Of a DNA stretch of 64,000 nt, positions 41,528 to 41,685 are shown piece by piece. A model generated the notes under the pieces. The model did not search any database, was not told where the DNA came from, and saw only the letters and a list, made by a program, of their open reading frames with translations. The translations under genes and the position numbers were made by a program. The DNA comes from Rosellinia necatrix (Eukaryota > Ascomycota > Sordariomycetes > Xylariales > Xylariaceae): positions 992,001 to 1,056,000 of the forward strand of contig JAGYVD010000005.1 of the NCBI GenBank assembly GCA_021209875.1. Reading direction: 5' to 3'. Numbering within the stretch: the stretch's first letter is position 1; each line of letters opens with the position of its first letter.

Positions 41528-41533
41528 AAAAAA
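41528..41533 (-). terminator. Pol III T6 terminator of tRNA-Phe
   Basis: Six consecutive T on the minus strand, 7 nt after the discriminator base. Confidence 0.8.
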
Positions 41534-41540
41534 GAAGTGA

Positions 41541-41685
41541 TGCGGTGAGTGCGGATTGAACGCACGACCTACAGATTAATGATGAAGTTTCGCTTCAGTC
41601 TTGAGGACGAGTTAGTCAAGTGCGCTTGCTGACGAGTGGAGATGGGACAAATTACCTGTCGCTCTCCCAACTGAGCTATCCCCGC
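41541..41685 (-). tRNA. tRNA-Phe(GAA) with canonical 16-nt intron plus an extra 56-nt intron-like insertion
   Basis: Removing two segments leaves a 73-nt tRNA: acceptor GCGGGGA/TCACCGC (one G5-A68 mismatch), D arm GCTC/GAGC, anticodon stem ACAGA/TCTGT, loop CTGAAGA (anticodon GAA), variable AGGTC, T arm GTGCG-TTCAATC-CGCAC, discriminator A. Segment 1 (41577-41592, 16 nt) sits between positions 37 and 38, the canonical tRNA intron site, and contains CTTCA, able to pair with the anticodon. Segment 2 (41600-41655, 56 nt) splits the anticodon stem between positions 30 and 31, a non-canonical place. It starts GTAATT, ends CAAG and has GACTAAC 12 nt before its end, like the spliceosomal introns of this genome. 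A box and B box are intact and a T6 terminator follows. It could also be a disrupted pseudogene. Confidence 0.8.
41600..41655 (-). other. Spliceosomal-type intron-like insertion in the tRNA anticodon stem
   Basis: 56 nt, GT...AG ends, branch motif CTAAC at plus-strand 41611-41615. Its removal restores a perfect five-pair anticodon stem and a standard seven-nt loop. Boundaries are ambiguous by one G. Confidence 0.7.

Follow-up and report, generated by a model that had tools for sequence, protein, structure and literature searches.

Candidate spliceosomal introns inside nuclear tRNA genes of Rosellinia necatrix

The introns of tRNA genes and those of mRNA genes are usually treated as separate classes with separate enzymes, and a 2026 review states that the spliceosome is not used in tRNA splicing (PMC13149111). 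A tRNA-Phe(GAA) gene in the window, the whole stretch of 64,000 nucleotides of Rosellinia necatrix DNA that we analyzed, is interrupted twice, and one of the interruptions resembles an mRNA intron. It raises the question of whether an intron of the mRNA type can reside in, and be removed from, a tRNA gene.

The gene occupies 41541..41685 (145 nt, 73 nt once spliced), and its parts were set by comparison with the two other tRNA-Phe genes of this genome, on C10 and C4, together with ARAGORN; all features given here lie on the reverse strand. Exon 1 (nt 1-30; 41656..41685) is separated from exon 2 (nt 31-37; 41593..41599, with the anticodon GAA at 41596-41594) by an mRNA-type intron of 56 nt (41600..41655), which divides nt 30 from nt 31 and is missing from both other Phe genes. 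Exon 3 (nt 38-73; 41541..41576) follows a 16-nt intron at the canonical 37/38 site (41577..41592), which is also the site of the C10 and C4 introns. The A box, B box and T-run terminator are all present: we take TAGCTCAGTTGG at 41667..41678 to be the A box and GTTCAATCC at 41553..41561 to be the B box, both by the consensus, and a run of six Ts that starts 8 nt past the tRNA end (41528..41533) is a likely Pol III terminator. The sequence-only reading had proposed that removing 41577-41592 (16 nt) and 41600-41655 (56 nt) leaves a 73-nt tRNA-Phe(GAA). This holds, and ARAGORN agrees on the spliced form, calling Phe(GAA) only once both introns are removed. With default settings ARAGORN found no tRNA in the unspliced window, and with long introns allowed it mis-called the interrupted gene as Met; this mode is unreliable here because the two ordinary Phe genes were mis-called too. 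An Rfam search of the window gave no family that reached its gathering score, all matches near the locus being weak and below it. The RNAfold minimum-energy form of the spliced window tRNA-Phe is not a cloverleaf; that of the C10 tRNA-Phe is.

Copies of tRNA-Phe were identified with a 21-nt pattern from the 5′ body, allowing up to 2 mismatches, across the whole genome (49.1 Mb in 12 contigs), and were found at three places, the window (C9), C10 and C4. All comparisons are among paralogs of this one genome. Neither the C10 nor the C4 gene has the 56-nt insert; their 37/38 introns measure 19 and 17 nt, respectively. Among the outcomes that the sequence-only reading had held to speak against its proposal was the combination of several intact tRNA-Phe copies elsewhere with no precise-excision RNA from this locus, and for the first half we find two intact genes without the insert. 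That reading had also taken a G5-A68 mismatch as a sign of a pseudogene. The mismatch itself is real; as a mark of pseudogene status we rejected it, since all three Phe genes carry it. The C9 and C10 bodies are alike at 71 of 73 positions, and both differences fall in one compensated pair, 52-62 (C-G versus U-A), which suggests that the Phe body has been under selection, before or after the insert arrived. Their 37/38 introns (12/19 alike) and their flanks have diverged, and the C4 body is more distant (66/73 positions). Both other Phe genes, and all five Ile genes described below, have an AACAA motif just upstream; the window gene is without it.

Aligned with its sister genes, the 56-nt insert can be placed in three equivalent ways, and one of these gives GT...AG. 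The ends thus follow from comparison with insert-free genes and not from hunting for GT and AG. The site between nt 30 and 31, away from the canonical 37/38 tRNA-intron site, the GT start, the AG end and the branch-like motif ACTAAC (41611..41616) had all been pointed out from the sequence and are borne out; from the putative branch A at 41612 to the last G is 12 nt. The insert ends in CAAG, whose AG is the first after that A. We drew 200,000 pieces of equal length from the window and from 88 genome loci and allowed three placements for each; GT..AG arose with a chance of 0.010, and GT..AG together with CTRAC 6-25 nt from the end with a chance of 0.0003. The 5′ splice site, GTAATT (41650..41655; CAG/GTAATT with the exon side), departs from GTRNGT, yet it fits the U1 complement at 8 of 9 positions when the exon side is included. 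The weak points of the insert are the T at +5 and the A preceding the AG. The sequence-only reading had proposed reverse splicing or intron gain as the possible origin of the insert; a search of the genome for its source found no second copy of the 56 nt.

How closely the insert resembles the mRNA introns nearby was assessed from spliced protein alignment that accepted only GT or GC donors and AG acceptors. It gave seven introns in the window, three of them placed cleanly; the set leaves out three MFS introns, which are doubtful, and a 36-nt piece in Sec18. The clean introns are 59 nt (GTAAGT), 75 nt (GTGAGC) and 63 nt (GTAAGT) long, so that the earlier match of the insert to window mRNA introns of 49-65 nt stands as a broad fit only (n=3). 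The 75-nt intron has the branch motif CTGAC, the 63-nt intron CTAAC and the 59-nt intron neither; the thiolase intron has no CTRAC close to its end. Proteins encoded in the window point to R. necatrix or something very close to it: a thiolase fragment matches an R. necatrix protein with 100% identity over 98% of the query, while the next matches, in other Xylariaceae, reach 94%. For Sec18 and a sugar transporter the best matches are from Xylaria, at 95% and 90%, with no R. necatrix protein among the 120 matches listed for each in a database clustered at 90%.

Is the window gene the only one of its kind? We searched the genome for an A box and a B box separated by 80-110 or 111-141 nt. With TAGC A boxes, the first search returned 13 places, 6 of which were tRNA inserts (reversed-pattern control, 15 places), and the second another 13 with 3 tRNA inserts (control, 8). 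TGGC A boxes gave 15 places (control, 11) and 17 (control, 12), and TAGT A boxes 7 (control, 13), with no clear tRNA insert in either set. Among the places not counted, L074, L075, L080, L087 and C3:1793465 were inspected closely and the rest judged by their first 80 letters; L080, L087 and C3:1793465 are apparently not tRNAs. L074 (C2:897618) and L075 (C2:6118156) are related and tRNA-like, with A- and B-box-like motifs, and form no obvious tRNA. Altogether we observe nine interrupted genes. Besides the window Phe gene, they comprise four for Ile(AAU), three of them on C8 and the fourth on C4, and four for Lys(CUU), with two each on C1 and C10. The patterns find only genes whose A and B boxes are intact, and they miss introns that lie outside the A-to-B-box interval or in genes with boxes of other types. 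There are therefore at least nine such genes, and the intact boxes of the class, having been demanded by the search, are not independent evidence. The earlier proposal of an mRNA-type intron within a tRNA gene thus gains support from eight more tRNA genes, belonging to two other isotypes, as well as from both U6 genes found (see below).

By body-pattern count, the insert is present in 4 of 5 Ile(AAU) genes; two extra matches to the Ile pattern (2 mismatches) are another tRNA, judging from a reading of one of them. The Lys(CUU) pattern, at up to 3 mismatches, had nine matches: four with the insert, three without, one decayed with the insert, and one non-tRNA, giving an insert share of 4/7 genes with the decayed copy left out. 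Insert-free genes exist in every isotype (Phe 2, Ile 1, Lys 3), and splicing of these tRNA genes therefore need not be essential. In Ile the insert (51-57 nt) separates nt 28 from nt 29, and all four genes have a 22-28-nt intron at 37/38 as well; in Lys the insert (59-84 nt) separates nt 52 from nt 53. The decayed Lys copy, L069 (C3:3844620), has kept an insert at the same site, starting GCAAGT. The first T run begins 8 nt after the tRNA in Phe, 9-11 nt in Ile and 38-46 nt in Lys (40-44 nt in the insert-free Lys genes). The Lys(CUU) genes, with or without insert (L041, L042, L052, L064-L066 and L068), have a conserved 3′ trailer, with the first run of at least four Ts 38-46 nt downstream.

Such genes are easily missed by ARAGORN in default mode and by an Rfam tRNA search. 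ARAGORN defaults detected 0 of the 9 as they stand; the Rfam tRNA search missed the interrupted Phe and Ile genes entirely and listed the four interrupted Lys genes, three merely as low-scoring partial matches. Two pairs of equal-scoring tRNA matches recur 114,734 bases apart on C12, which is probably mitochondrial and assembled past one circle; the D. necatrix mitochondrial genome is given as 121,350 bp in PMC11404375.

All nine tRNA inserts start with GT and end with AG, in one of 3-5 equivalent placements each, and both U6 introns (2/2) have the same ends. GTRNGT is found in 8/9 tRNA inserts, the exception being the Phe GTAATT; the Ile 5′ sites are GTATGT (three) and GTACGT (one), and the Lys sites GTGAGT (two), GTAAGT and GTATGT. 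The branch motif CTAAC occurs in six of the nine (Phe, the four Ile and one Lys), and the other three Lys inserts have TTAAC, CTAAT and TTAAT, the last of these (Lys C10a) being weak, with two candidates. The distance between branch A and last G is 12 nt in Phe, 10 nt in Ile and 12-13 nt in Lys, with no intervening AG. Including the exon side, the fit to the U1 complement is 8 of 9 positions in Phe, 7-8 in Lys, 6 in U6 and 5 in Ile, where the poor fit lies on the exon side of the 5′ sites. None of the 11 introns (nine tRNA and two U6) contains TTTT, against 2.4 expected from genomic background.

The U6 genes provide a second Pol III class in the same genome. Among the best 47 of 2321 candidates scored, two U6 matches lie above the Rfam cut-off, at 66.0 and 62.8 bits, and the third, at 15.2 bits, is far under it. 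Both U6 genes have GTGAGT..TACTAAC..CAG introns, 53 and 60 nt long, after GAGAAGAT, and the interiors of the two introns are related (2/300 shuffles). A B-box-like GTTCGA lies within both introns (L038, L039), as if the internal promoter sat there. We find no intron-free U6 among the best 47 of the 2321 candidates scored; if these two are the sole U6 genes, the organism must splice a Pol III transcript to live.

Taken together, the insert ends, the splice motifs, the further genes of the class and the conserved bodies beside diverged interiors, all read from the DNA itself, make it likely that this Pol III tRNA-Phe gene carries a spliceosomal (U2-type) intron, the 56-nt piece, one of at least nine in tRNA genes of this fungus; it would be removed by the spliceosome while Sen takes the 37/38 intron. 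We strongly infer that the Ile and Lys inserts are spliced, and splicing of the Phe insert is probable. The case for the window gene is weaker than that for Ile: it is a single copy with a weaker 5′ site, the AACAA motif is missing, and its RNAfold structure is not a cloverleaf. A set of nuclear tRNAs (Phe, Ile and Lys) likely matures via the spliceosome, which would rebuild the anticodon or T stem of a Pol III transcript; Phe and Ile would then be cut by Sen at 37/38, so that in these two isotypes a pair of unrelated splicing machines would act on one tRNA. For the window gene, Pol III would transcribe the whole unit, from the intact A and B boxes through to the T run, the spliceosome would excise the 56 nt, so that the anticodon stem is restored, and the 16-nt intron would fall to Sen endonuclease and tRNA ligase. 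We infer the order, spliceosome first and Sen second, from the way in which Sen is held to find its splice sites, by their distance from the tRNA body (PMC4090602); an insert in the anticodon stem alters this distance.

The interrupted genes could instead be dead or dying copies whose inserts are never removed, and are intron-like by chance or as landed mRNA introns. We consider this unlikely, although each isotype has its insert-free copies, L069 is a Lys copy with an insert that has plainly decayed, Lys C1b carries an extra C, and PMC4090602 takes most D- and T-arm insertions in eukaryotic tRNA genes as pseudogene marks. The eight Ile and Lys bodies are intact and 96-100% identical between paralogs: the Ile bodies are identical or differ at 3/74 positions, and the Lys bodies show 0 to 2 differences, the extra C of C1b being in the T arm. 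Dead copies would also hardly account for an insert in four of five Ile genes, or for splice motifs kept while the interiors diverged. The interiors were compared in pairs inside each of these two isotypes, and 10 of the 12 pairs match no better than shuffled sequence; a clear relationship is seen for Ile C8c and C4b (0.84; 0/300 shuffles) and a marginal one for Ile C8a and C8b (12/300 shuffles). Long upkeep of splicing predicts the same site, unrelated-looking interiors and lasting splice signals, as observed in Ile and Lys.

Ile C4b groups with C8b by body (support 93) and with C8c by intron. Gene conversion between tRNA bodies could have taken place, and would soften the argument from body conservation. 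When we asked whether the insert-free Ile gene, C4a, reflects precise loss of an mRNA-type intron, it was left unplaced in the tree (support 42); Lys tree supports are only 19-44. Over its whole length, including the shared splice motifs, the Phe insert is closer to each of the four Ile inserts than shuffled sequence is (0/200 each); with the interiors alone, the observed value is matched or exceeded by 21 to 159 of 500 shuffles.

A reading of the inserts as ectopic tRNA introns that Sen cuts at a bulge-helix-bulge, of the kind known from archaea, nucleomorphs or Cyanidioschyzon, is very improbable. Such introns are known at anticodon-stem and T-arm sites (PMC4090602), and the full 4-bp central helix can form in 2/9 inserts, Lys C1a and C1b. 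In the other seven it cannot form completely, by a minimal test on the bulge-helix-bulge geometry (the Phe insert makes 2 of 4 pairs), and the paralogs keep GTRNGT, the branch motif and AG rather than pairing. Least likely of all is that the interrupted sequences belong to Pol II transcripts with ordinary mRNA introns, for although the introns are of the mRNA type, the paralogs conserve the tRNA body while the flanks have diverged, a T run follows the tRNA at the distances given above, and the inserts are without TTTT.

If removal of the tRNA inserts by the spliceosome is confirmed, the spliceosome acts on short, structured Pol III transcripts beyond U6, intron gain reaches past Pol II genes, and the supply of tRNA-Ile(AAU), with 4/5 genes interrupted, would largely hang on the spliceosome. 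Because a single genome holds paralogs both with and without the intron, gain, loss and splicing order can be tested directly. Non-canonical tRNA introns are described from archaea, nucleomorphs and a red alga, and others in eukaryotes are rare and mostly in pseudogenes (PMC4090602); the string 'spliceosom' does not occur in the text of that review. The Guillardia theta nucleomorph and Cyanidioschyzon merolae resemble the present case in having second or third introns in the anticodon stem or T arm, tRNA-Phe included. Those of the Guillardia nucleomorph are 3-24 nt long and those of C. merolae depend on the bulge-helix-bulge (PMC4090602), both unlike the inserts here. We found no report of spliceosomal introns in tRNA genes in a literature search with most subscription journals outside its scope, which is weak evidence. 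What appears new here is an ordinary intron type in a gene class where we found none described.

The C10 and C4 genes have the same body and canonical intron and lack the second insert, and Neurospora tRNA-Phe is likewise known with a short 37/38 intron only. Small group I introns of 62-78 nt occur in fungal rRNA genes; the splice motifs of the tRNA inserts do not suggest an intron of that kind. An mRNA-type intron has reportedly been claimed for an ascomycete 18S gene. Ascomycete rRNA introns of this sort share with our inserts a spliceosomal look in a gene outside Pol II, but lie in a Pol I transcript with no tRNA fold and no Sen intron. A further parallel, which the sequence-only reading had named, is the mRNA-type introns known in fungal U6 snRNA genes, in S. 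pombe and others. These too, like those of both U6 genes found here, combine GT-AG ends with a CTAAC branch motif in a Pol III gene; the difference is that the host here is a tRNA gene, which in Phe and Ile carries a Sen-type intron as well.
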